64,000 nt of DNA from NCBI RefSeq assembly GCF_000740895.1, contig NC_025263.1, forward strand, positions 434,001 through 498,000. Direction: 5' to 3'. This DNA is from Theileria orientalis strain Shintoku. Lineage: Eukaryota > Apicomplexa > Aconoidasida > Piroplasmida > Theileriidae. Both the position numbers and the translations under genes were made by a program. Positions within the stretch are counted from its first letter, which is position 1. The number at the start of each line of letters is the position of its first letter. Below are positions 7,408-56,006 of this stretch, in pieces. The notes below the pieces were generated by a model. It made no database searches, was not told where the DNA came from, and saw only the letters and a program-made list of their open reading frames with translations.

Positions 7408-10400
7408 TCAACTCATTAAATCAGTAACGAACTTAACAAGGTACTTATTCCTCAAGAATTCGTTTACTCGATCCTAAATACGTATGTTTAGTGCAAATAC
7501 AATATCCCATTAATAGATGATGTAAGTATTATCTTACCGGATCCTTTTTCAAATACTCTTTAGACCAGTTTTTCAAGTAGTTGGGATCAAGTTTGTTGTT
7601 TACTGTTTTGCATATGAAAATAGATCCCGTCTTCGCATAGTGGTTATACAAAGCTGACCAGTGCTTATGGTCAAGAAGGTATCTGGGATTTCCTAAAAAG
7701 AGTGATGGTGTGAATATATTAAAAGGTAAAGTGTGTAAAGATAATTTGAGATAATGTGAAATCACAAATAGGACTCAGGATCTAAGGACGTGAGTTTTAT
7801 ACTTACCGACTATTAGGAGGTTACTGCATGCCCTGGTTATCGCTACGTTGATTCTTCTCCTGTCGGCTATGAAGGAGGCGTCGATGACGTTTGCGGTCAG
7901 GTCTGGCGTCTTCTTCGCTATCTTGGTCAGGTATTCCTGGGTTAGCCTTTTGAACTTCTTCACTTCGTTCTCGTCGTACGGCTCTGCGTCTATTGTTAGG
8001 ATCGACTGGGACGTAAGGTCCTCTATTCGCGCGTTCAGCGCCTTCTTGTTACCGACGTAGTTAGTTCTCACTGCGCTGAATATGATTATGTCCTTTTCCA
8101 TGCCCTGGAATCCGTCGACTGTGCTTACGTATATTTGATTCGTCTTTGACGGCGTAATCTTAGAGTAATCTGGCACGTTCGTCTGTGGATTTATTTTAAT
8201 CCTCTGCGAAATCGTCGACTTTAGTATTTCAGCCTGCGCAGCATAGGGACTGATAACTGCAATCTTTCTCGCGATTTCCTCCGCTGTAATTCCCGGAATC
8301 GTTGACATTATTTCTATCAGCATTTCCAGTAGCTGGCACACTAGATCCACTTCCATTTCGTTCACATATGACGTGTCATTCCTAGACTCGTGCGAGTCTA
8401 TGGCAAAGAAGACTGTCGGCCTGAACAGAGGGAACTGGCGCCAGTCCTCCTCCGGCTTCGATAGTGACTTTTTGGCGTTAATGAGCTGATTCTGATAAAA
8501 GTACATCGAAGGGAACCTCGTTATCAATGGGTCCATTCTATACTGGAGCTTCAGGAAGTTCACCGGGTACCCGCACAGCTGCAGCCTCTTGAAGAGCGAC
8601 TGGTCGTAGTTCAGCTGTATCGCCACCTTCGAACAGACCGTCGCTGATAGCTGACATGGGTCTCCCACCAGAATCGCTCTTTTGCATCCCAGGTTGAATG
8701 GGATCAGCGTCGACAGCTCCACTGCCTGCGTCGCCTCGTCTATGATCAGCGTGTCGAAGCAGTTTATCAGGCCGTACAGCTCCCTCGAGCCGCATCCTGA
8801 CAGCGTCGAGCACACGATCTCGCTGTTGAGCAGTATGTCCATGATTATCGTAGGCCTTTTCGCTGTGTTTCCTCTGTCTCCCTTGAGGTGCGACAGGTTG
8901 TTCTTAGACAGCCACTTTTTAAGCTTCGTCTCCAGACTGTACTCCTTCAGGTCCTCGTGGAAATTCGGGCCAACTCTGGTCACTGTTGGATTATATCTGT
9001 TTCCCTGCGGGTCGAATATTCCTCCGTCCGGACTCACCAACCTCTTTACGATCTCGTCGATTGCTGCGTTTGAGGGTGCACAGATGAGTATTCTTCTGTT
9101 GCTGTGGTTCTCACTCCCCAGGTGTACTACATTGTTGTTCTTTATTTTCTGAGTGTTGAAACAGCTGTAAATGTTATAATCCGAGTTTGAAAAGTAGTCG
9201 TATTTATCTCCCGAGACCAGGTCGTCAAATGTTATCTTTTCATCCTCAGTGTCATCTCGTGAGTACAGCCAATAATTCTTAATTTTACGATTCGTTTTTG
9301 AATCCTTTTTACACTTTTTAACTGCCTTTTCATTATTATTTGATACTGTGTTTGACGAATATAGAATCAAACTGACAATTCCCATTATGGTCGTCGTCTT
9401 TCCAGTTCCAGGGGGCCCTTGTATTAGGGATATGCCTTCCGTCATTAGACTGTTAGATACTGCTGATAGCTGTCCTGAGTTATAGTTTTCTTCAATTGTT
9501 CTCTTCAATCGTGGTGGAACTTCAAAATCTACTATAAGCTCATTTGTTGTATCTGGGTCCAATGTATTCTTTCTCTCTGACATTACTGTCAGTAATGAAT
9601 CCTTTAGCGGCATATTGCTCAACATACACAGTCCCTTAAACTCTCGCAGTATTGTTGTTAATGATATCAGCTTTGATACGTACCAGCATTCCGAGTCTCC
9701 CTTTACTGCGTGTGATTGTCTAGGCGAATATATATACCTCAGTTGATTTTGTATTGACATGAGCCTATCCAAGTCTCTATCGTCAAAGGTCTCTGGCGTT
9801 GCAAAACTCGGTGGCAATAGCAATATTTTCAACACTATTCTATTTTTAAGGATTGATACTAAGTATCCTATTGCGTGGTTTATAGAATCTTCGTACACTG
9901 GATGCGATAAGCTCATTCCGTTAGATCCAGAATATTTATCAATTCCATATCCCAGAACTGTACTTATGTCCCTTTTATTTGAAACGAAATTATGTTTGCG
10001 TAAAAATAAACACACAAGATCTCCTGGTGAGAAATCCGGAAGTGGATGGCTGAATGAAAAGGTAACATAACCAAACACACCAGAAATGTTACAAGATATC
10101 TGAAAATAATAATATTATATATAGTCATACCGGCTCTAAAGGTGACGGAATAGATAAATCGTTGTACTTTGATTGCGATATAATCTCGAGGCACTCTATC
10201 ATAAAGAGTGAAAAGAAAGAAGCATGGTATTCTTCTACTGAAGATATTTTATACGGCAATGGAACTAGAGGAGAGTCCCATTTTATTCTTTTTTGTATTT
10301 GCTTTAAATTATCATTAGAATCTTGAACCAAATCCCTGTAAAAATCTAATGATAAAAGCCTTTCAAGAATATCATCGATAGATGAAAGAGTTGGATTCTT

Positions 10401-17631: not shown

Positions 17632-19696
17632 TCAATTAATTGGATGAATATTAATATTCATCTGTTTTTGCCATGATTGCAAGATTCTATTAAACATTAT
17701 TTCTTTAATTGACTTTAATACCTTATATTTTCTTTTGAATCGATTGTAATACATTTTCCTACACTCGAACACCTTCCTACTCTTCCTACACATCTATATC
17801 ACTATCCACAGTACCTGATATGTGTATATATTCATTTACATTCCTCGGTCTTCCTATTATAAAAACACTTTCAAGCTATGAATATTTGATAAATATTAAT
17901 TTTTACATACCGATGGTATGTGAATTCCCCTTGCTGAATCTGATGATTCGATTAATATCGTATTATCTGTATTAATAATGTTATTAATAATAAATTTACC
18001 ATTTTCATCATTAAATTTATTATTAAAATTTTCAATTATATTATAAACATCTTCATTTGATTTCCTTTTAGTTTTATTAATGTTTTCATTTATATCATCA
18101 TTAATTCCTAGTTCATGATGCAATATTTTACACTAAATTTATTTTATTTTTTATGAAATCATACCTCAATATTATTCTTTTTTATTTCATTTTTAATTTT
18201 AATCAATGATCCGTTACTGACGAATATTATTGTTTTTGATGTATTATTTTTCAACAATTCAACCAATTTGTTTAGTTTAGAATCTATAAATTTTAATAAA
18301 TATCAATTAATCTATTACCAATTGAATTATCATGTGAATATGAGTAGTAATGTTTAACACTGTCAGGAATAGTGACGTATCTTCCTGTAACAGTCGCCTT
18401 AATTTTATTCCTATATTATCATTATATTAATAATAATTTTATTTACCTTATTAATGAAGTGCAGTTTCCGTTTCCTTTGCGATATAATTCAAACAATCTG
18501 TTTATTTTCCTTAAGTGTTTTCTTGTTAGAGAAGCAGACGCACACACAAATTTAACATTGTTAGGTGAAAGATTTAATATTGACTAAAATGTTATTATAT
18601 ATAATAATATCATTACTTCGCATATGTTATATGCGGATCCTGGATTATTGTATAACTTCTGTTTTTTATTTTCAGTTGAGTATTGATCTACATTTATAAT
18701 TATGATGATTACTTAATTACTTGGCACTTTAATTAGCCTATCAGTTTCGTCAAGAAAAACATAATCAATTGATTGAAGAATCGATCTTGTATTCTTTTTA
18801 TCAGTTTTCTAAGTTTTTTAATATAATTTTAGTTTAAATTACCAATAATAATCTTTCAAAATCATTGCTCGATCCAACTATGAATATGATATCCTGATTT
18901 CTAAAAATATAAAATTTCATATATTTATTTACATTTGAGATATATCGGTTTTATCATCGATAATAAGTTGAATTACTTTATCATCGTTATTTGAAAATTT
19001 AGAAATCTGAGCATCATTTATTAAATTTATAAATACCTGTTTAGCTGATTGAACAGCGAGCTCCTTAGTTGGACACAATATCAATACTCGTGATTTAGAT
19101 TTGTTATTTTTAATATTATGTTCATTCGAATAGTTTATTTCATTTAATGTTTTATAATTCTTAAATAATCCATTAAATTTATTTGATGTTAATATTTGAG
19201 GATTAATTCGATAATAATATTTAAGAACCATGTATAGCAACACAGCAAATGTTTTCCCAGAAGATGTGTAACTATGAATTATTACATCCATTCCTTTAGA
19301 TAATTGTTCAAATAACGATTTTTGATATTCATTAAGTTCATGGAATCCTTCATTAGATAGAACTTTATGAATTGAATTGATTAAAGGTTTATTATTAAAA
19401 ATAGAGTCAATATCATTATCAATGTCTTGAATTTTGTTTATAGGTTCATTTGTAAATGATTTTCCATAATGTGAAATATTATCATTATATGTAAAATCGT
19501 TATAAATATTATCCAATTTATTATCATATTTAACAATTTCTTTTAATCTTATATTTGAATCAAATTTTAATGTTGAATTAATAGAAAAAAAATTTGTTAT
19601 AGGTGTGTTTATAAATCTTGAGTTATGATGATGCTTTAATTGATTATTATGATTAGAAATGTATAATAATGAGTTAGATAATAAATTAAAATTCAT
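17632..19696 (-). CDS. Divergent DEAD-box-type RNA helicase with many mini-introns
   Basis: The first exon (255 residues) is followed by about ten small exons that keep one frame. Motifs in order: SYTSSGKT (motif I), LILCPTKELAVQ (Ia), DYVFLDETDRL (II, DETD for DEAD), CASASLT (III, SAS for SAT), IIFVSNGS (IV), ILIESSDSARGIHIP (V) and NEYIHISGRVGRCSSVGK (VI). The end is rebuilt from exons separated by 29-36-nt introns and finishes MNINIHPIN. The Asn-rich N-terminus with basic residues could be an organellar targeting peptide, since most departures from consensus also occur in mitochondrial helicases. The gene is far richer in Asn, Lys and Ile than its neighbours. Confidence 0.78.
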
Positions 19697-19814
19697 ATTA
19701 GACTAATTAATATGATATTATTTTTAATATTATTTAATTATTAAATATTAAATTTTTAAACTATGAATTATTATATGTTTTAAAATTATGTGTGGATCGA
19801 TGTTGTGTATGTTA

Positions 19815-22800
19815 TTAATAAATGGTTTTCTTATTATATGATGAAAACACAGTGTTTAGTTCTTCTCTCTTGTGCGATAGTGACTCCTCTAGCATTGATA
19901 TGTGTTCTTCCAATTGTTTGTAGCATTTAGTTTGAAGTAAGTCGTTCTGCTTTGCTACTATTTGAACCTTGAACTCTAGCTTATTTGTTACATCGAGAAG
20001 ATCGTTCATTTCATCTCCAAGGTCGTCGTGTAATGCAACTATGAACTTTAGCTTGTGTTTTCCTAAAGATTATGATTACACATTAAAGTACCTGATGAGA
20101 CAAACGATTTATTATATTCCTTAAATTTCTCAAACAAATTCATCGATTCACTAGCTGCTTTGGATTTAATTTCATTGGGTAAGAGGTCAAGTTGATTTTG
20201 TGTAATGCTCGTAATTTCTAGGTCGGAGTGTTTGAACTTTTCTTCAAGCTCATCGGGACCAGCGAACAAGTCATACTCAGTAGAATGAGTTCCAGGCTTA
20301 GAATAATCAGACTTGGGCCACACGGACCATAGGTGATAGAATATTATGTTTGTGAGCCATATTTTGAACGCCAGGCAGAGAGGATATAACAATAGTTCAG
20401 TTAGACTTTTATCCTTGAACTCTCCGAAGAACTGATGATCGTATAAAATGAGTCTTAGGCACCTCTTGAAGAACTTATTACCCTTGATGAACTCTAAAAT
20501 GGAATTATAACATAGAAAAATTACCTGAGAAATAGTCCTTAGAAATGAAATAGAAAAAGAAGAGATATGTGAAAACCATAACAAGGAAGTAGAAAATGAT
20601 GTTAGCGTAGAGGTACTTCATTTGGTATAGTACAGATATGCCTACGTATAGGTAGTGTCGGACTGTACGGTTCTTTAAGATAACGCCAAAGACTATGATT
20701 CCTGTAAGTAAAAATCCGATTGATGAGTGAATATAAAATATCTTTTTAGTGATGAGTTGATAATAATATCTGTAAAAAATGTCTTGAAATTCATCAATGT
20801 GTTTAATGATTATTGTACGATAAACAAGTATAGAAATGTAAAGAGTGAGTAAGCTCACGACAAAAGCAATGATGATAAGATCCAATAACCTTCTGACGTC
20901 GTTGAGATAGTACATGATAATCATGTGTACAGCATTAGATCGTGGATAATACATGAAGAAACCCTTTCTGAAATTATCTATATCCTTAATCAGTAGCCCA
21001 AGCAGAATCAGCAAAAACAAACAGGTACAGACAAGAATTGCATAGTAGATTATGTTTTTATTCTTCGGAGGAAGAAATATGGAAAACACGTTCTGGACCT
21101 TGACCTCGTGAGTCATCATTCCAGACTTCTCCATGTAAAACTTGATGTTAGCGTTGTAAATCTTGTTATGGAACTTTGAATCGACAACGATTATATCTAG
21201 CATAACCTTTTTAACAGTATCTGGTATTGTGTTGATCATGTTGTCGAAGAGGTTTTCAAAACCATGTACATCTTCATCAATCATCATTAATTGGTAGTAC
21301 CTGTCGTGAAAAATAGTCTTTTTCATGTTTGCAACAAGGTATTTTGGAGGAGTAATGTAGAAGTAAAGGCTGAAAAGAACAGGCATCTTATTAGGGTGTA
21401 GAAAGTATCTCGAATTAATTGCGATAATAGGAGAGTCACTTTGGGGAAGATCATCACGACCAGAAGTGTCTATACGTCTAAACAGTGATCTAACAGAACC
21501 AATGTTAAGCCAATAATAAAGATCATTGAATGTTGATATCATTGAGTCGGGAATTGTAGACTCGATAGTGACATCGGCATTGTGACTACTTGGAGGAGTG
21601 TCGATGACTTTAAGAAGTTCAGTGTATTTCATGTTATAGAGCTTCATTTCAAAATTGAACCTTTTGCGTGTTCTACGAATTTGTTCCTCTATGGTATCTG
21701 AAATGACCTTAGAAACCTTAGAGCAGTTATATTCATAGTATAAAAAGGCAATAATACAGCCAGCGAGTATAAAATAAGTAATAAATCTGAAGAAATTAAC
21801 CAAATAAAACCTGAACTTTGACTTTTTGTTATCGAATATGCTGGAGCTGTCACTTTCGTCGTCCTCAACCATGTTCTTTATAGGATCTGATTTTATTTTT
21901 GACCTTGTGTTCTGTATATGAATAGGCTTTGAATGAAATATCATAGATCCGATGAAATGCTTTAATTTATTATACAGGTTTGAAAACCTTTGAATGAACT
22001 TGATAAGCCTAAAGTTGTCATATTTCCAGGAAACAGCCCTTTTACTAAAGTTTAGTGACTTGTCGTTGTCGTCAAGCATGAGTAGAAGAGAGGTAACAAG
22101 AATAACAACTAAGTAGAACGATATGAGCAGAAGCATGATGAAAACGATAGAGTATATTACGCTATAGTTGTCAATGTACTTTAGCGTCGCATCGTTTGAA
22201 ATGCCAAGAATGAGGTTGAAAAGAGCAAAGAAGTTGTGAACGACGGAATGCGATGAAGATTTGAACATGTGAGCAACCGATGAGCTGAATAAGGCAATAA
22301 GCATAATAGAAAGTACAACGCCAACCGTCAGTGACACTAGTGGCATTTTGAGGTGGTAGTAGTACCTCTTATAGGTAAGAGACAGTTGATTATTCTTGTT
22401 AACAACCAGCCACGTTGATATGAAGGATGTAATGACGGAAAGCATGACGAAGAAGCACAGCAATCCAAAAACAATAATCGTAACCCTGATGCTGAATTTA
22501 AGTCTGCTGAAGGTTAGTTTGAGTAATTTTTCGTGGTCAAGTTTAACGTCGTAGTAGCCCAGAACGACGTCAGATATGCAGAAAGCCTTGTCGCAGGTAT
22601 TATTTGCAACTCTAGGGAGAGAGTAGTTTGCAAAAATCGCAATCGCGTTGAAGAAAACCAGCGAAAGAAATACTGATATTTTGAACACTGAGTCGAAAAA
22701 ATAGTCGAATATAAAAAATGATTTAGGATAAAGCTTGAACATGACAATTGTGTAGATTGTGTTTGCGATTAAGAGTGCGATGAGAATTGCATCCAGAATT

Positions 22801-23810
22801 AGTGGAAACAGACTTGTGTTTATCCGATACGATGAAACTATTACCAGAGGATCAATTACTGAGTCAACTACGTCAAGCCCGTTTACTTTCGTAGTTTTGT
22901 CTCTGATTTTAAAATTAATGTTTACTGAGCTAAAGACGTTGGATACTCTGTTGTTCGTAATGAAGTCAACAGAAATTTGATTTATCTTCTCGTTTGAAAT
23001 TATGGCATTTAGAGGAAAGTACGGTTCCCCGTTTAAGTAAGAAGTCCCCTGCATCAAAGAAGAGAGGATTTCGTCAATTGTTTCTCCATGTACAAACTGA
23101 TAGTTTGCAGATGTATTCGGGTCATAATTGTAACTGTAATGAATGTTTCGACCAGAATCAGTAGCAACAGAGTTATCCTTAGATGGTTTTGAGTGTAAAA
23201 GAACACTTGACTTTGATACAACATCAGAAGGGACATTGTATTTGTATATTTTTCCATTCCCAGTGAACGTTAAGAGAAGAGTGTTAGTAACCCAATTGTT
23301 AAATGTGTTTAAACCCTGAAATAGGTTAGGTATGAGTCCAAACTGTATCCACATTGCGATATCCGATCTAGTTTTTATCTGATCTATGTTGATAATATGA
23401 TTCGTGTGTTCCAGTGTCAAATTAACTGATTTAACGTTAGAACCAGAAATATTTGAATCAGATATTGTGCTAGACAGTAATTCAGTGCTATTATTGTTTA
23501 TTTTATCAATTATGTGTAAAAATCCATCTTTATTTGGGGAATATATTGAATTGATTGATTGGTCAAGAGACTTGTTGACCATGAAAACAGATTTTATGTT
23601 TACTGTTATTAAGCATAGCAGTACAAGTATTATCAAAATTAATGCAGTGAGACCTGTGTATGTAACTTTATGAGCTATAGGTATATCATGAGAAGTATCA
23701 TTAGATATATTGGAAGAGGAATCATCATCGTTTATAATGGGCTCGTAATGAGGGAATATACTGTTAACATAAGTGTTTAAAACGTTAGCAAAATTTAAAA
23801 CATCCTCCAT
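19815..23810 (-). CDS. Polycystin/TRPP-type cation channel protein with two tandem channel units
   Basis: A long first exon (about 1,096 residues) plus two small 3' exons give about 1,250 residues. First unit: membrane helix at about 50-73; large extracellular loop with MWIQFGLIPNLFQGLN and ISVDFITNNRVSNVFSSVNI, the polycystin-loop pattern; five further helices; and a pore-like HNFFALFNLILGISND before the last helix. Second unit starts near residue 640 with a new helix. Its own loop carries YYWLNIGSVRSLF and VMLDIIVVDSKFHNKIYNANI, followed by helices to about 1,090. The extreme C-terminus is a predicted coiled coil (KQLEEHISMLEESLSHKREE), as in polycystin-2. Two 6-helix units in one chain are unusual for this family. 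Ion selectivity and membrane location are unknown. Confidence 0.68.
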
Positions 23811-49238: not shown

Positions 49239-49901
49239 TGAAATGCATATAAAACTAAACTAAATTGCTTAAAATTTAAAGTAAATATAAACTAAAACAT
49301 AACATCATATTGGAATCATCAGACAAAAATTAAATAACACAAAAATATGAATATGTATACATAAACAATAGATTTATATATAAAACAATCTGAATCAAAA
49401 ATATCAGTGTCCAAAATGAGTCAAAGGTGTAAATAAAATGGGTCGATATCCATGGAATTAGCCATGGAAAAAAATAGGGTAGAGGTAGTGATGATAAATT
49501 AAGATAGAGGCCATAGCTCGGATTCACAAGGGAATCATAAATACGATTTTTAAAAAATTATAATTCTGAATTTGAGGAATCACATATTAACTTAATTTCA
49601 GGTCATTTCGGATCTGGGGGATCGCAACCTAACGATATAAAAAGTCCCGTTTTTGTGATTTCGGCTGGCTGTTTCCAAATACCAGTCATTTATTTCGATT
49701 TGAATTTATTTATAAAAATATAATTTTGATTTTGGAGACTAAAATTCGCATCTATTTGGTAGAAATCTATTATGCATTATTACCAAATTTTCATCGAATT
49801 TATAATATCTAAGATCACAATAATTTTGGCTGTAAATTTTGGTAAAAATTAATCGCATTAAATTTTTTTAAATTATGCTTTGAGATGTGACACTGGTAGC
49901 C
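49239..49901. promoter_or_regulatory. Long divergent region with a GC island upstream of the AP2-like gene
   Basis: 663 bp. Most is AT-rich, but 49600-49675 is distinctly GC-richer and contains GTCATTTCGG (49602-49611) and GTGATTTCGG (49655-49664), two near-identical decamers 53 bp apart. No ORF with gene-like composition is present. The hydrophobic 65-residue frame at 49330-49527 on the minus strand has AT-driven composition and is not called. Confidence 0.45.
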
Positions 49902-52900
49902 ATGTCTCTCAGTATGAAGCAAGCGTGCCCAGACGGCGGCATTGGATCCGAAAAAATATACATTACTTCAAATTTAGATAAGTATATGTCGAAGGATGCC
50001 AACAGCTCGCTTATCCCGTTCTTAAACAGAGCTGAAACGGCTTCTGAGTCACCGCTTATCAGGCAGGAAACCTATTACGAAGATTCCACAATTAGAGATA
50101 AATCGTCAGTTTCTGCAGGGCTGCTCGAAAATCTTGACACGATTGAGGATGAGGAGTTCGACATAGAGGAAATTAACGACAAGGGTTTCAATTACGCCCC
50201 AAAAACACTTCTGGAAGCAGTGGACACAATGCTGATCATTTTGGAGGATCTGGGCAACCGCTACAGCAAATGGAAGTACGAAAACAATGGAATATACAGG
50301 TTCTATTGCCACAAGTACAACCTGACGAACATAGACGCCTCCCGCCCTTACTACAGCAAGATACTAAACCAGTTGAACAACATAGATTCAATCTCACTTC
50401 ACCTCCTGTCAACTCACTATAAAGCGAAATCTGATTCTGCAGTATACACATCAAACGATTTAGTTGATAACATTCTATGTCAGCTAGATGAGCTGGTTAG
50501 TTGCTACTGTAGTAAGAAGTGTGCATTCGGCATTTCAAACGAAGTCTTTCACGTATGCTCCGACATAAGCGCACATCACACGAACCTGAAGTGGAAATAT
50601 CCAACCACAGCGGAACGGTTCCTGGCATTATCAAAGGCCACGACGTCTGAGCGATCAGTTCTCTCAGAAAAGATCAAGTCAATGGAAAGGAACCCGTCCC
50701 TCGAGTGGAGTAGACCACTCAGCAGGAGTTTATCTCTAGACCAGAACATACTTCATAGGCCGATTTCGACCGAGAGTGTCGCCGAAGCTGACGCACACTC
50801 AGAGAGGCCTAAACTCGAGGGAGTCCTGGAAAAATTGGAGAATGGAGCGAATGATTTAAACCACGACCTCGGAGAGTCGTGTTTCATTAGAGAGATGGGC
50901 GACTACAACAAGTGCGTGATGCTGTACTTCTCAGAGAGAGGAATCATGCACAACTTCAGCCAGCCGTACGTCAAGGGAGAGGAGGCGGTCCCAGTACACC
51001 CCTTTCTGAGAGCGGTAATATGCTATAACTGCGGCAAGTTCTGCAGATGCAGGTGCCAGAGGAAGATATTTAGAAAGTACACGACTGACGAGTCCCCAGA
51101 GCATTCGCAGTCGAGTGACGCGTCCGAGGCAGATTTCTACCCTCACATAGACGACAACCTCGATATTTTCGAGAGGAGATCTAAGGAGTTTATTAACGAG
51201 ATTTATCTCGACTTCCGCGGAAAGAGTAGATTGAACGAATTGTCATTCCTGCTTAAAAATAAGGAAAACGTGACTATATGCCAGAAGGACCTGCGTTCAA
51301 TACACCTGCACACAGTAAAAAGCGCCTGCGGAAGAATACAGTTCCTTACTTCGACCATTGAAAGCATGAGTCCGTCAAACAGAGAATCCGATGAGCAGGG
51401 AATAGAGGACACGAAGAAGAGGCCAGGCCTCATAAACACGAACATCACGAAGGGCTCCAAAATTGACGCAAGCATGGGCTCAGTGTACTACTCGAACCTG
51501 TTTAGAGGAAACGTCGCAAAGGTGTCTGCGAAGGAAATATTTGAGATAATCAACTCAGTGCCGTTCTCATGTGTGCCAGCGGAGCTGTTCAACGCCTACA
51601 AAAAGGCAGAGTGGTATGAAATGTACTCGTCAGTGTGGTGGAGGCTGGACACAAGGTTCGAGGAGGCGCAGCTGCTGGAAGACGAGGGGAGCCTCGAGCC
51701 GTACATCCTGAACGCACTCCACGCACTGGGGTACCTGGGAAACATAAGGTACGACCCGAGCCTTAAGGTGATCGGAGTAGGCTACTTCAGAAAGAAGAAC
51801 TGCTACTGGCGCTACTTCTACGTGAAGGACCTGTGGGAGAGCTTCAGGTGCGCAGTGGAGTACTTCATCCTCATAAGCACGCTGCCGAGCGAAGTGCACA
51901 TTGACCACAAGCTCCTGTGCTTCGTGGCGTCCAGGAACGGCGTGCAGAAGAAGTTCTCGTTTCACCCCTCGGTACTTAACGCGTACACGCACATGGTGGC
52001 CTTCGTTAACGGGAACGAGTACGGAAGGCCCTCGAGGTCGAGGAGCTACTCCTCGGAGAGAAGGTTCTACATAAAAAACCCATGCGGAGTGGACCACTTT
52101 GACCCCGAAAAGGTGGGAACGCAGAAGTGCACAGTGGCAGACGTGCTGGAGGTGTCTATCAAGAGGAAGCTGATATCACTGCCGGACGCCTCGGCGCCGA
52201 GAAGACACTACACGCAGAAGGCAGCCACCGCAACCCCAACGATTAAGCTGAAGCTTGACCCGCAGCTCATCTACCAGGGAATTTTCGTCTCCACGCCAAC
52301 GAGCTCGTCGAACAGCACGACGGCAACCAGCATATCGAACCAGAACCAGTCGCCACGAGCCCCGGGAAGCGGGACGAACAGCCGGGTAGACCTCACGCCG
52401 AACAACTCGTTCTATAGCAGCTGCAATGCGATACTCCCTAACCCAGCAACGCCCAGAGGAACCAGCAGTTACAACTACACACAATATAACAGCGTCAACA
52501 GCAGCGGAGGCCTTGATTCCGACACGACAATTGAAGGCCCGCACTCGAACGGCAACAACATAAACAGCAACACAATCTCAAAAGCCTGCTCAGAAGTAAA
52601 AGAAGGAATGACTGTGGATAACCTGTTTGATTTGAAACTGAACAACCTTAATATTATCCTTTCTTATTACCCAGATGTATGTACACAATATAATACGATC
52701 ATTAAGCAGGCTAATGACCTGAAGACACAACTGGCGCTGCTGTTGTCGGACCTGAAGTGCATAGTATTCGACCCTCTCCAAAACGGGGTTGAGCTGTTCC
52801 CGAACAACTTTAATTCGCAAAACGGAGAAGCTGGAGGACCAAAGCACGAATCCACTGACAATGCAAATGGCAACGCAGAAGTCAAGGAAGTCGCGGACCT

Positions 52901-54644
52901 GCTTAAGAAGAAGGCAGAAGCGGCGGGAGCGAAAAAGTACAAGTTGCCGATGTCGGACGTGTGCTACAACAGCGCCACAAGCAGCTGGGTGTGCTTCCTG
53001 GAGGTGATGCCGTGTCTGGTGTGCCCACTCGAGTGCGACAGGACCGGATCCTGCGTGTACTACACGCAGGGGAAGAGGCTGATCGAGTTGATCTGCAGCA
53101 AGATGAAGCCCTCGAGCGTCCAGTACGCGTTCCACCCGCACTTCAGCCCCGACTCGCACCAAAACCACCAGGACAAGAAGCAGGAGGTGGGCGTGGTCAG
53201 CTTCTCAGTAAATCAGTTCGGCCAGGAGCGAGCGAAGCTTCTGGCATCGCAGTTGAAGGCCACCTACAAGACTCAGGCGCTGAACACCATGCTGCACAGC
53301 GTCTCAAAGGACAAGAACGGGAACTCTGGAGACACGAAGAAAAGCAACGAAAGTGGCGGCGAGTTGCCCAATTCGTTCGAAATGAAGATCCTTCACAACG
53401 TAATCACGGCGCATTTGACGACACTGATGTCAATCCACTCGTACATTGTCTACGACGACGAGGAGTACGATGCGTTGGAGTCGAAGAACTTCAGAAGGAT
53501 TGACATTGAAAAGATTTTGAAGGGCCACCTTGGGAAGAACAGGGGCTCGAGCGACTCGACGAAGAAGGCCTTTTCGAAGGGGTACAGGTTAAAGACGTCT
53601 GAGCAGCTCAATGATCTGATTAAGGACAAGGTAAATGAGCTGAACAGTTGCAACATGTCAGAGGCTGGGGGCTTCAACTACTCCGATATAATCGATACGA
53701 TCCACGCTAACGGACCGCTGAATTGGCTCAAGAACGGGGTATTTAATCAGAACCACGGTGAAATGGACGGACGTCGCGGCAACGTTGCTAATAATAGCAA
53801 AGACGACGACGCCAATGTATCCAACAGCACGAGCAAGGCTGCTTTGATCAATGTGAATGACAAAGAAGTTATTAACAGGCTGGATGTTAACACCGATTCC
53901 GGAATAGGATACTATGAAAGCCTTTTGGACGCCCCTGATGATTCAGTTGACCTCAACGACGATTGCGATGCCTCAAGCTCCAGCACTGAGGATTCATACC
54001 GGGAATGCTTCTGCTACTACTACGGAAACCACATTCGGGGGAGCGAGGGGGACCTTGAAGTCTGCAATGTCGTCAGATTCAACGAAAACCTGTACACCTT
54101 CTCAAACATCTTCGAGATGAGCCGGCTCATTCAGCTCAACTCGAGGAAGCTGCATTACTGCCCGCGCCACTGCTGCTTCGTCACCGTGTGGAAGGACGCC
54201 ATCGACCAGACGCGCATCATGTTCCACCCGATTGAGCGGTTCATCCCCTTCAAGAGCTTCGACGCCTACGTGAGCAAGTTTAAGCGCGACTGGCCCGAGG
54301 CGGTCAGGATTCACAACCTCCACTCGCGCTCCCGTGACTCCGCCGAGGGCTCGAAGATGGTCGCGAAGGTCAACGCGATCCTCTGTGAGTGCTTTGGGAA
54401 CCTGCTGAGTCTGCAGAAGATCATCAACGACGCCGTCGTGACCTCGATGACTCTTGCGATCCGCGCACTCTGCGACGCGTCGCAGGAGAAGAGCCTGCTG
54501 TCCAGGCTCTTTTTAATCAACGAGCACTTCCGCGTCTCCAAGGACGCCATGCGCAACGCGATGGTTTTCTCAAACGAAATCCTGTTCCCCTTCGGTGCTC
54601 TACACGACGAGGCTACACCACCCATCTCGGACGACGACTTTTAA
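49902..54644 (+). CDS. Giant AP2-like (ApiAP2-type) nuclear protein, single exon
   Basis: 1,580 residues without an intron; the first true ATG is at 49902. Around residues 1,013-1,030 MSDVCYNSATSSWVCFLEV looks like the start of an AP2 domain (GVxWxxxxxxW). After an insertion of about 60 residues, VVSFSVNQFGQERAKLLAS (about 1,096-1,115) matches the strand-helix end of ApiAP2 domains. Two further segments have a similar strand-strand-strand-helix look: KVIGVGYFRKKNCYWRYFYV near residue 620, and CCFVTVWKDAIDQTRIMFHP near 1,420. A Cys-rich patch (CYNCGKFCRCRCQRK) lies near residue 370. Apicomplexan AP2 proteins are sequence-specific transcription regulators. Linkers are Ser/Asn/Thr-rich. Codons are GC-rich compared with neighbours. 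Confidence 0.55.
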   Translation: MSLSMKQACPDGGIGSEKIYITSNLDKYMSKDANSSLIPFLNRAETASESPLIRQETYYEDSTIRDKSSVSAGLLENLDTIEDEEFDIEEINDKGFNYAPKTLLEAVDTMLIILEDLGNRYSKWKYENNGIYRFYCHKYNLTNIDASRPYYSKILNQLNNIDSISLHLLSTHYKAKSDSAVYTSNDLVDNILCQLDELVSCYCSKKCAFGISNEVFHVCSDISAHHTNLKWKYPTTAERFLALSKATTSERSVLSEKIKSMERNPSLEWSRPLSRSLSLDQNILHRPISTESVAEADAHSERPKLEGVLEKLENGANDLNHDLGESCFIREMGDYNKCVMLYFSERGIMHNFSQPYVKGEEAVPVHPFLRAVICYNCGKFCRCRCQRKIFRKYTTDESPEHSQSSDASEADFYPHIDDNLDIFERRSKEFINEIYLDFRGKSRLNELSFLLKNKENVTICQKDLRSIHLHTVKSACGRIQFLTSTIESMSPSNRESDEQGIEDTKKRPGLINTNITKGSKIDASMGSVYYSNLFRGNVAKVSAKEIFEIINSVPFSCVPAELFNAYKKAEWYEMYSSVWWRLDTRFEEAQLLEDEGSLEPYILNALHALGYLGNIRYDPSLKVIGVGYFRKKNCYWRYFYVKDLWESFRCAVEYFILISTLPSEVHIDHKLLCFVASRNGVQKKFSFHPSVLNAYTHMVAFVNGNEYGRPSRSRSYSSERRFYIKNPCGVDHFDPEKVGTQKCTVADVLEVSIKRKLISLPDASAPRRHYTQKAATATPTIKLKLDPQLIYQGIFVSTPTSSSNSTTATSISNQNQSPRAPGSGTNSRVDLTPNNSFYSSCNAILPNPATPRGTSSYNYTQYNSVNSSGGLDSDTTIEGPHSNGNNINSNTISKACSEVKEGMTVDNLFDLKLNNLNIILSYYPDVCTQYNTIIKQANDLKTQLALLLSDLKCIVFDPLQNGVELFPNNFNSQNGEAGGPKHESTDNANGNAEVKEVADLLKKKAEAAGAKKYKLPMSDVCYNSATSSWVCFLEVMPCLVCPLECDRTGSCVYYTQGKRLIELICSKMKPSSVQYAFHPHFSPDSHQNHQDKKQEVGVVSFSVNQFGQERAKLLASQLKATYKTQALNTMLHSVSKDKNGNSGDTKKSNESGGELPNSFEMKILHNVITAHLTTLMSIHSYIVYDDEEYDALESKNFRRIDIEKILKGHLGKNRGSSDSTKKAFSKGYRLKTSEQLNDLIKDKVNELNSCNMSEAGGFNYSDIIDTIHANGPLNWLKNGVFNQNHGEMDGRRGNVANNSKDDDANVSNSTSKAALINVNDKEVINRLDVNTDSGIGYYESLLDAPDDSVDLNDDCDASSSSTEDSYRECFCYYYGNHIRGSEGDLEVCNVVRFNENLYTFSNIFEMSRLIQLNSRKLHYCPRHCCFVTVWKDAIDQTRIMFHPIERFIPFKSFDAYVSKFKRDWPEAVRIHNLHSRSRDSAEGSKMVAKVNAILCECFGNLLSLQKIINDAVVTSMTLAIRALCDASQEKSLLSRLFLINEHFRVSKDAMRNAMVFSNEILFPFGALHDEATPPISDDDF

Positions 54645-54692
54645 ATTTGCATAATTTTTTGATTTGCCTGTTTATTTTTCATTTTTCCATTC

Positions 54693-55889
54693 ATGTTAGA
54701 TACTTGCGGCTCCATAGAAGTTCACGGTCTCAAGGAAGGCAAGTTTGGTGCTCAGGGCGGCAAGCCTAAGCAAGCCCTATGTTGCCTCTCAGGGTAGGCC
54801 TTTAGTTTACACATTTTTTTCAGCATCAGGAATCTGGTCGTAAATCGCATTTCCTTCCCCAAGAATCTGCCCAGGGGCTACAAAATAGACGCGAACGGGG
54901 AATTTTTGGTATACTTCAACGGCAGGGTCACTGAGGCCAACGACTACCTCAGGCCTTACAACCTCAGGTGCGCACACAAGTGGATCGGGAGCGAAAGGGA
55001 CCAGATATCGGTAATCCACATATACAGTACCTATGACAACGTGACTAGCGGGCCCTCGAGGGGGATGAAAGGCAACATTTATTTTCTGTTCAGCCATGGG
55101 AACAACACTGACGTCGGCCACATGTTTTTCATGTACACTCGCCTGTGCTGCTTCCTCGGAGTTAACCTCGTTTCCTACGACTACAACGGCTACGGACTCA
55201 GCTCAGGTAAGCCTTCTGAGATGAACTTGTACGAGAACGTCGTTTCGGTCTACAAGTTCATGCGGGACTCGCTCAAGGTCGACCCCAGGCACATCATTCT
55301 CTACGGTAAGTCCCTGGGATCCGCTCCCGCGTGCTTCCTTATCAGTCAATCGGAGCTTTACCCTGTAGGTGGGCTAATTTTGCACTCTCCTCTCGCTTCC
55401 GGGCTCCGCGTGTTCTTCAAGTCGATCATTAAGCACCGTTTCGACGCCTTCGACAATGCCGAGTTTCTCAAAAACTGCCCTCTAATCCCTGTGTTCTTGC
55501 TCCACGGCATCTCCGACGACCAGATTCCCATTGAGCAGGCTGTCGAGCTCACTTGCATTGTGAAGGAGAGTCACGAGGTCGTGATGTCAAAGCGCCTCAA
55601 TCAGAACAACAAGTTCCACCTCGAGAACGTTCCCAACCCCAAGGTCGACGCTGAGCACTCGCACCTCAACCAGGAGAGCATTGAGGTGATTCCCCGCGGC
55701 CGGTTCTCTCAGGTCATTCAGGACGCTCGCAAGATAAACCAGACTAACCAGTACGTCAAGACTTGGTGGATTGAGGGCGCCGGCCACAACGACATTGAGC
55801 GCATCTTCTCCGCCGACTACTACGACCACCTCTCCAAGTTTCTCCAGCTTTACCGCAAATGGCTCAAGGAGAATAACGGTTTACACTGA
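54693..55889 (+). CDS. ABHD17-type alpha/beta hydrolase (putative protein depalmitoylase)
   Basis: Two exons: the first starts at 54693 (MLDTCGSIEVHG) and splices across a 30-nt intron; the rest is one frame. About 385 residues. FLFSHGNNTDVGHMFF is the oxyanion strand. LYGKSLGSAPACFL contains the nucleophile Ser in GKSLG. LLHGISDDQIPIE holds the acid Asp, and EGAGHNDIE the His. The N-terminal LCCLSG is a Cys pair of the kind that is palmitoylated to hold ABHD17 at membranes. A Pro/Asn/His-rich insertion (about residues 270-320) lies before the His strand. The gene starts 48 bp after the AP2-like gene. Confidence 0.85.
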
Positions 55890-56006
55890 CTCACCGCTGT
55901 TTATGTAACGTAGAATGTAAATACACATGATTCTTAAAACATTAAATACAGATAGCATTAAACACAATGTTTGATTTTAAACTACATTAATGTACTGACA
56001 CCGTAA

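Follow-up and report, generated by a model that had tools for sequence, protein, structure and literature searches.

A Theileria orientalis membrane protein with two six-segment units in one chain, possibly a tandem polycystin-type channel

A gene of the cattle parasite Theileria orientalis, strain Shintoku, occupies exactly positions 19815..23810, on the minus strand, of a 64,000-nucleotide window (the whole stretch of DNA that was analysed; NC_025263.1, 434,001–498,000) and encodes a protein of 1,311 amino acids. Its 12 membrane segments form two groups of six in one chain, and each group has a large loop after its first segment. The explanation preferred here, with slightly better than even confidence, is that the protein consists of two polycystin-type units in tandem and would dimerise into a pseudo-tetrameric cation channel. 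Known TRPP channels have one unit per chain and assemble as tetramers, and Group II transient receptor potential (TRP) channels are likewise known as tetramers of one-unit subunits. All positions given below are window positions, and all parts of the channel gene lie on the minus strand.

Results

A single gene spans both units

The coding sequence begins with an ATG at 23810, ends with a stop codon at 19817–19815 and comprises 3 exons with 2 tiny introns. Exon 1 (20525..23810) is a single open frame of 1,095 stop-free codons, which covers the complete unit 1, the linker and segments S1–S5 of unit 2, that is, both units except the pore helix, filter and S6 of unit 2. Intron 1 (20494..20524; 31 nucleotides, GT..AG) separates S5 of unit 2 from the pore helix, which is encoded together with the filter, S6 and the start of the C-terminal region by exon 2 (20092..20493). 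Following intron 2 (20063..20091; 29 nucleotides, GT..AG), exon 3 (19815..20062) encodes the part of the C-terminal region (residues 1151–1311) that contains a candidate coiled coil at about 1234–1275, found by a home-made heptad count that 16 of 1000 shuffles equalled. Splicing affects only the pore helix, filter and S6 of unit 2, and the remaining layout is independent of the introns.

The splice model is supported by the annotated T. orientalis proteins P0002 and P0003, which run in step with it across exons 2 and 3. Both exons align in full to both proteins, exon 2 with 115/134 identical residues for P0002 and 113/134 for P0003, and exon 3 with 64/82 and 61/82, respectively. As exon 1 is one open frame holding both units, apart from the pore and S6 of unit 2, and as the protein is conserved, the two-unit layout is more than chance. 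Fused gene models as the source of the two units were considered and rejected because a single exon spans both; a pseudogene was also rejected, the gene being stop-free and conserved across other strains and species.

That the second pore sits beyond intron 1 was not part of the original prediction. P0001, a public T. orientalis model, reads into this intron and terminates just ahead of the second pore; P0004, from T. annulata, likewise stops just ahead of the pore, with a tail resembling the same read-through. The two-unit layout has possibly been overlooked because gene models break at the 31-nucleotide intron and because profiles are blind to both units. By comparison with the three-exon model, the public models appear faulty in all five cases. 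S1 of unit 1 is missing from P0001, P0002 and P0003; P0003 also lacks the stretch holding S3 of unit 2, and P0005 diverges and then ends within S2 of unit 2.

Membrane layout of the two units

Membrane segments were taken from a hydropathy scan, which gave 13 stretches, two of them overlapping, and hence 12 separate segments; hydropathy and the structural models described below together support the assignments. Unit 1 comprises S1 (residues 54–72; 23595..23651; a helix at 45–89 in the model), S2 (334–352), S3 (375–393), S4 (443–461), S5 (491–509) and S6 (555–573), where S2–S4 (334–461) lie at 22428..22811 and S5, pore helix and S6 (491–573) at 22092..22340. Unit 2 comprises S1 (673–691; 21738..21794), S2 (923–941), S3 (978–996), S4 (1027–1045), S5 (1071–1089; 20544..20600) and S6 (1129–1147; 20339..20395), and its S2–S4 (923–1045) lie at 20676..21044. 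The linker between the units (584–660; 21831..22061) is assigned by position and is presumably cytosolic.

The loop between S1 and S2 is 261 residues long in unit 1 (73–333; 22812..23594) and 231 residues long in unit 2 (692–922; 21045..21737). By hydropathy and by the models, each unit thus has the six transmembrane segments and the large S1–S2 loop of a TRPP channel, whereas the presence of two such groups per chain departs from the TRPP arrangement of single-unit chains in a tetramer. Two six-helix units with large loops in one chain is what the original prediction had described, and the strings that it quoted are all present. These are VDFITNNRVSNVFSSVNI (residues 281–298; 22917..22970), a polycystin-like motif within two strands of the TOP (polycystin-type) loop of unit 1, LDIIVVDSKFHNKIYNANI (871–889; 21144..21200), the polycystin-like motif of the unit 2 loop, and ILGISND, in which LGISND starts at residue 535.

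The TOP loop of unit 1 is free of cysteines. In the S3–S4 loop of the same unit, the string CDKAFC (22578–22595) carries Cys406 and Cys411, which are kept in all five rows of an alignment of the family, A1.

Fold searches

The two units were modelled separately, unit 2 from the corresponding piece of P0002. Fold ranking identifies unit 1 as polycystin-like, for all 40 of its Foldseek matches to the PDB at E <= 1e-3 are polycystins. The top match, 7d7e_A, is a chain of the PKD1L3/PKD2L1 complex, named PKD1L3. Polycystins precede mucolipins in this search (1.3e-6 vs E 0.077), and VIA ranks both equal. The model of the unit 1 loop contains helices at 148–167, 195–205, 245–253 and 266–273 and strands at 174–183, 236–242, 278–287, 292–309, 312–319 and 324–330; a TOP fold is seen in the model and in the fold searches, at a mean predicted local distance difference test (pLDDT) score of 39.5 and under the search tool's caution that matches of low-confidence models may be meaningless.

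For unit 2, the same polycystin-like fold is suggested. The helices and strands of its loop, although predicted independently, follow the same order as those of unit 1, and polycystins take ranks 1–7 among 350,542 chains in Foldseek, at E values of 0.05–0.1 that are not significant alone. Judged by fold ranking, the resemblance to polycystins extends to both halves of the protein. The original claim of two polycystin-like units consequently stands for unit 1 and holds in part for unit 2, where element order and Foldseek ranks agree with it but the match is neither significant nor at the top by VIA.

Sequence comparison of the units with each other and with PKD2

Similarity was expressed as z values, that is, alignment scores relative to local-shuffle controls, and several comparisons were made. 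Full-length tests used ortholog-averaged profiles, global alignment and 300 shuffles; part-wise tests used 500 shuffles and give scores only. At full length, unit 2 against PKD2 gave z values of 3.7 and 4.0 (reached by 1 and 2 of 300 shuffles), and unit 1 against unit 2 gave 2.4 and 3.2 (9 and 3 of 300). S2, S3, the end of S4 (KNRT/FNRT) and the pore (RLILYD/RIILGD) are in register between unit 2 and PKD2, and the unit 2 loop is out of register with that of PKD2. Owing to this shift, and to a mispairing of the S4–S5 stretch of unit 1 with the S3–S4 stretch of unit 2, the full-length values are to be discounted, and the parts were therefore tested alone.

In the part-wise tests, S2–S6 of unit 2 scored z 2.4 against PKD2 (5/500 shuffles), -1.3 against NavAb and -0.7 against reversed PKD2, and the corresponding values for S2–S6 of unit 1 were 0.6, 1.3 and 0.0. 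The two loops resemble each other with z 2.7 (8/500). Single-sequence alignments gave z 1.1–1.2 for unit 1 with PKD2, 2.0–2.1 for unit 2 with PKD2 and 1.2–1.3 for the two units; the T. annulata values were 0.3, 2.1–2.4 and 1.9–2.1. When the unit profiles were compared by hhalign, only the start of the loops was aligned, ending at KTRSDIAMWIQFGLIPNLF with STFNDLYYWLNIGSVRSLF (E 0.019, probability 2.4%), and nothing was found against PKD2 (probability 0.2% or less). BLASTP of the halves, run with no composition correction, listed among its pieces three of 28.1, 27.3 and 19.2 bits (E 7e-4, 0.001 and 0.40), the latter two in register and the 27.3-bit piece covering the same loop start as hhalign. 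The mutual similarity of the halves that the original prediction expected is consequently seen as a weak likeness of the loops, and it is not seen when the S2–S6 regions are compared. Overall, the sequence signals between the units and with PKD2 are weak and none would suffice alone; those in register agree with the fold ranking.

A considerable set of results weighs against two polycystin-type units. Model confidence is low, with mean pLDDT of 39.5 for unit 1 and 37.3 for unit 2 and no residue at or above 70; the search tool's caution applies to such models, which were ranked without a folded control. The polycystin rows have TM-scores of only 0.11–0.22 for unit 1 and 0.09–0.16 for unit 2. 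For unit 2, none of the Foldseek matches reaches E <= 1e-3, the 50 rows listed include 15 CorA and 10 polycystin entries, and by VIA a phage protein, MRS2 and three CorA rows precede the first polycystin; such lists do not count against families that they omit. Unit 1 aligns with PKD2 at full length no better than shuffles do (z 0.65 and 0.47; 72 and 80 of 300), S2–S6 of the two units compare at z -0.4, and the loops of units 1 and 2 compare with the PKD2 loop at z -0.2 and -0.7, where the yardstick of PKD2 against NavAb stands at z 7.5. The full-length alignment of the units loses register within the channel part, as noted above, and the 28.1-bit BLASTP piece is displaced by one helix, pairing S4–S6 of unit 1 with S3–S5 of unit 2. 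Finally, the protein matches none of the polycystin or ion-channel profiles in Pfam and NCBIfam.

Several of these points would also fit an alternative that we consider unlikely, in which unit 1 is truly polycystin-like and unit 2 is an unrelated six-helix domain whose large loop and topology arose by convergence. The insignificant, CorA-mixed fold search of unit 2 and the S2–S6 regions that align no better than shuffles speak for it. Being out of register, the full-length alignment and the strongest BLASTP piece shift slightly more weight to it and slightly less to a tandem of like units. Convergence is harder to reconcile with the shared helix and strand order of independently predicted units, with the loop-to-loop score, with z values of 2.4–4.0 between unit 2 and PKD2 where the NavAb and reversed controls are negative, and with the first seven Foldseek ranks of unit 2 being polycystins.

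Pores and filters

The reference filter of PKD2, as read in 5mke_A, is FRIILGD, and neither unit has the LGD selectivity filter of TRPP channels. The pore of unit 1 reads LILGISND, with the filter LGISND at residues 535–540 (22191..22208); across the five rows of A1 the pattern is G-[IV]-S-[NS]-[DE], so that the glycine and the acidic residue four positions on are both kept. The pore of unit 2 reads RLILYDHQ, in which LYD (1112–1114; 20438..20446) replaces the LGD of PKD2, the aspartate being kept and the glycine not. LYDHQ is found in all three T. orientalis sequences that reach this filter (the window, P0002 and P0003). In addition, S6 of unit 2 contains a basic residue, Lys1139. The second pore had been called degenerate in the original prediction, which the missing filter glycine and Lys1139 bear out; on the other hand, S2–S6 of unit 2 is nearer to PKD2 than that of unit 1 (z 2.4 vs 0.6), and the unit 1 filter is also non-canonical.

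The PKD1 pore is blocked and has basic residues in S6. This background, together with Lys1139 and the absence of LGD from both filters, is the basis of a further and quite improbable explanation, namely that both units are polycystin-like in fold and the protein forms no pore, acting instead as a receptor like PKD1, as a scaffold or as a regulatory partner for another channel. The conservation pattern argues otherwise. S2–S6 of unit 1 is the best-kept part of the protein between species (169/250 residues identical with T. annulata), residues 478–581 are 72% identical with T. annulata and 74% with T. parva, and an acidic residue ends the unit 1 filter in 5/5 rows of A1. Moreover, a partner was not apparent in the organism's own genome, where neither a second copy nor a match to PF00520 or PF08016 was found, although those profiles miss this gene too.

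Profile and family searches

The original prediction proposed a profile check, and neither half matches PKD_channel (PF08016) or Polycystin_dom (PF20519): both are absent from the families listed at E <= 10 for the window pieces and for all five relatives. In six frames of its own genome, PF08016 had 0 matches, with a control that was weakly positive in 1 of 14 genomes, and PF20519 had none there or in any control genome, so that its silence carries no information. As no Pfam polycystin profile matches, the protein is not filed as a formal TRPP member. The Pfam matches that were listed belong to unrelated families, all far under the cut-offs (best E 0.038), and were rejected. With a limit of E 10, PDB sequence searches returned 17 and 16 sequences, among which no polycystin or ion channel of this type occurs, and profile A1 had no match at that limit. 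The best sequence matches, to neurotensin receptor 1 (E 0.038 and 0.016, at S3–S4 of unit 2), were set aside as chance, since they fall to E 0.77 with the profile.

A two-pore channel (TPC) of the voltage-gated type was rejected because there is no Ion_trans match. Such a channel would have two Ion_trans domains and short S1–S2 loops, whereas PF00520 (Ion_trans) matches neither the channel protein nor its own genome and the loops are of 261 and 231 residues. The absence of PF00520 extends over the 9.0 Mb of this genome in six frames, and 9 of 14 control genomes were positive. By this profile, the genome would seem to hold no recognisable voltage-gated-type channel, although genes that are divergent or split by introns could escape it.

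Relatives in Theileria and other Apicomplexa

Protein searches returned the identical five proteins, all from Theileria: three from T. orientalis, one from T. annulata (53%) and one from T. parva (52%). Two of these searches scored only about 8,000 candidates sharing most words, and the third took its words from the unit 1 pore only and scored 181 candidates; as exact shared words were needed, the lack of relatives outside Theileria does not show absence elsewhere. Exact-word searches of viral contigs (with the Theileria alignment and PKD2 as queries) and of prokaryotic genome contigs also found no relatives. The T. orientalis protein P0001 is 100% identical over 90% of the query, yet it differs at residue 512 (V/F) and in its first residue. 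Identity to P0002 in A1 is 79% for the window, 76% for P0003, 54% for P0004 and 51% for P0005. Within its own genome (9,010,364 bases, 6 contigs), the channel gene matches only itself by protein search.

The published record on apicomplexan Trp-like proteins bears on how special the layout is. Table 2 of PMC3194816, a survey of 2011, contains 11 homologues, of which 8 have 12–19 predicted transmembrane segments: 14 in P. falciparum, 14 in P. knowlesi, 12 in P. vivax, 14 and 19 in T. gondii, and 13, 17 and 13 in the TrpP entries of Cryptosporidium. In Toxoplasma, TgTRPPL-2 is a Ca2+-permeable channel of the endoplasmic reticulum and cell periphery, with 2,191 amino acids and 14 predicted segments (PMC8216714), and Plasmodium PF3D7_1313500 is a putative TRP-ML (PMC9319510). 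Given that 8 of 11 entries have 12–19 segments, it is doubtful that the two-unit layout is special to the Theileria lineage.

We therefore give a nearly even chance to the layout being ancestral to the apicomplexan TRPP-like channels (Toxoplasma TRPPL-1 and -2, Plasmodium PF3D7_1313500), of which this gene would be the piroplasm orthologue. This reading is compatible with a tandem channel and reduces its novelty. The segment counts of the survey and of TgTRPPL-2 favour it. Set against it are the three other Cryptosporidium entries with 6, 8 and 8 segments (PMC3194816) and the description of TgTRPPL-2 with a single large loop, between segments 1 and 2, and one PKD domain (PMC8216714). Furthermore, the survey reports Babesia bovis as having no Trp homologue and, in the portion available, does not name Theileria, and our sequence searches reached Theileria only, so that orthology with the Toxoplasma and Plasmodium proteins is a candidate relation. 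Two TRPP-type units in one chain are not mentioned in the available portions of PMC3194816, PMC8216714, PMC9319510, PMC9799330 or PMC7312350. The titles and abstracts listed in searches of the open-access literature, a scope that leaves most subscription journals outside, yielded no tandem polycystin and no Theileria polycystin.

Other features of the window

Directly behind the channel gene, at 18929–19702, lies the N-terminal part of a DEAD-box helicase. A second helicase gene, AAA_11/AAA_12, which we take to be UPF1/SEN1-like, is found at 7775–10114. An open frame of 1,586 amino acids at 49884–54644 has no Pfam match at E <= 0.001; it lies in a region (50001–56000) with a GC fraction of 0.48–0.52, where the remaining 2-kb windows range from 0.23 to 0.44.

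Discussion

The tandem would probably go back to a TRPP/TRPML-like subunit that was duplicated internally long ago, giving two units that each consist of S1, a large TOP loop, S2–S4, S5, a pore helix and S6. Two chains, rather than four, would then dimerise into a pseudo-tetramer, as two-pore channels do. The two kinds of unit would alternate around one pore, which would be lined by two glycine filters (LGISND) and two that have aspartate without glycine (LYD), with a lysine in S6 of unit 2. Such a pore would correspond to a PKD2/PKD1-type heteromer whose subunits are covalently joined, with a forced 2:2 stoichiometry. By analogy with Toxoplasma TRPPL-2, the channel may conduct Ca2+ and take part in the parasite's Ca2+ release or entry. 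The fuller proposal, that a polycystin unit was duplicated and specialised within one chain to give a 2:2 pore of half-filters (glycine in unit 1, aspartate in unit 2) as a covalent PKD1/PKD2-like counterpart, possibly in all Apicomplexa, is put forward tentatively, at rather less than even odds.

If the tandem is real, the two-repeat layout known from two-pore channels would have arisen a second time and independently, and the order of subunits in a mixed polycystin pore would be fixed and open to testing. It would also provide a TRP-like candidate for piroplasm Ca2+ signalling, where the 2011 survey lists no Trp homologue for B. bovis and does not name Theileria (PMC3194816). The 12–19-segment Trp-like proteins known from Plasmodium, Toxoplasma and Cryptosporidium would be worth re-reading as possible tandem channels.

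Comparison with known systems

Members of the polycystin-2 family (PKD2, PKD2L1) have the same order of S1, large TOP loop and S2–S6 and are the nearest Foldseek folds of both units, not significantly so for unit 2. They differ from the Theileria protein in the LGD filter, which is LGISND and LYD here, and this protein has a cysteine-free TOP loop in unit 1 and no Pfam polycystin match. Heteromers of the PKD1/PKD2 type mix conducting and non-canonical pore units, as separate chains in a 3:1 ratio. The best unit 1 match comes from one of them, PKD1L3/PKD2L1; the single chain described here would instead force 2:2. Mucolipins (TRPML) fall behind polycystins for unit 1 by Foldseek and are tied by VIA.

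Two-pore channels also have two six-helix units in one chain and dimerise. They are of the voltage-gated type and lack TOP loops, and the Ion_trans profile has no match here. Toxoplasma TRPPL-2, TRPP/TRPML-like with 14 segments and, in the available text, one PKD domain, is the nearest studied analogue (PMC8216714). The Plasmodium Trp homologues have 12–14 predicted segments in the portion of the survey available (PMC3194816), and the inclusion of PF3D7_1313500 among them is a guess. Apicomplexans may share a single design, of which the Theileria protein would be the version found in piroplasms.

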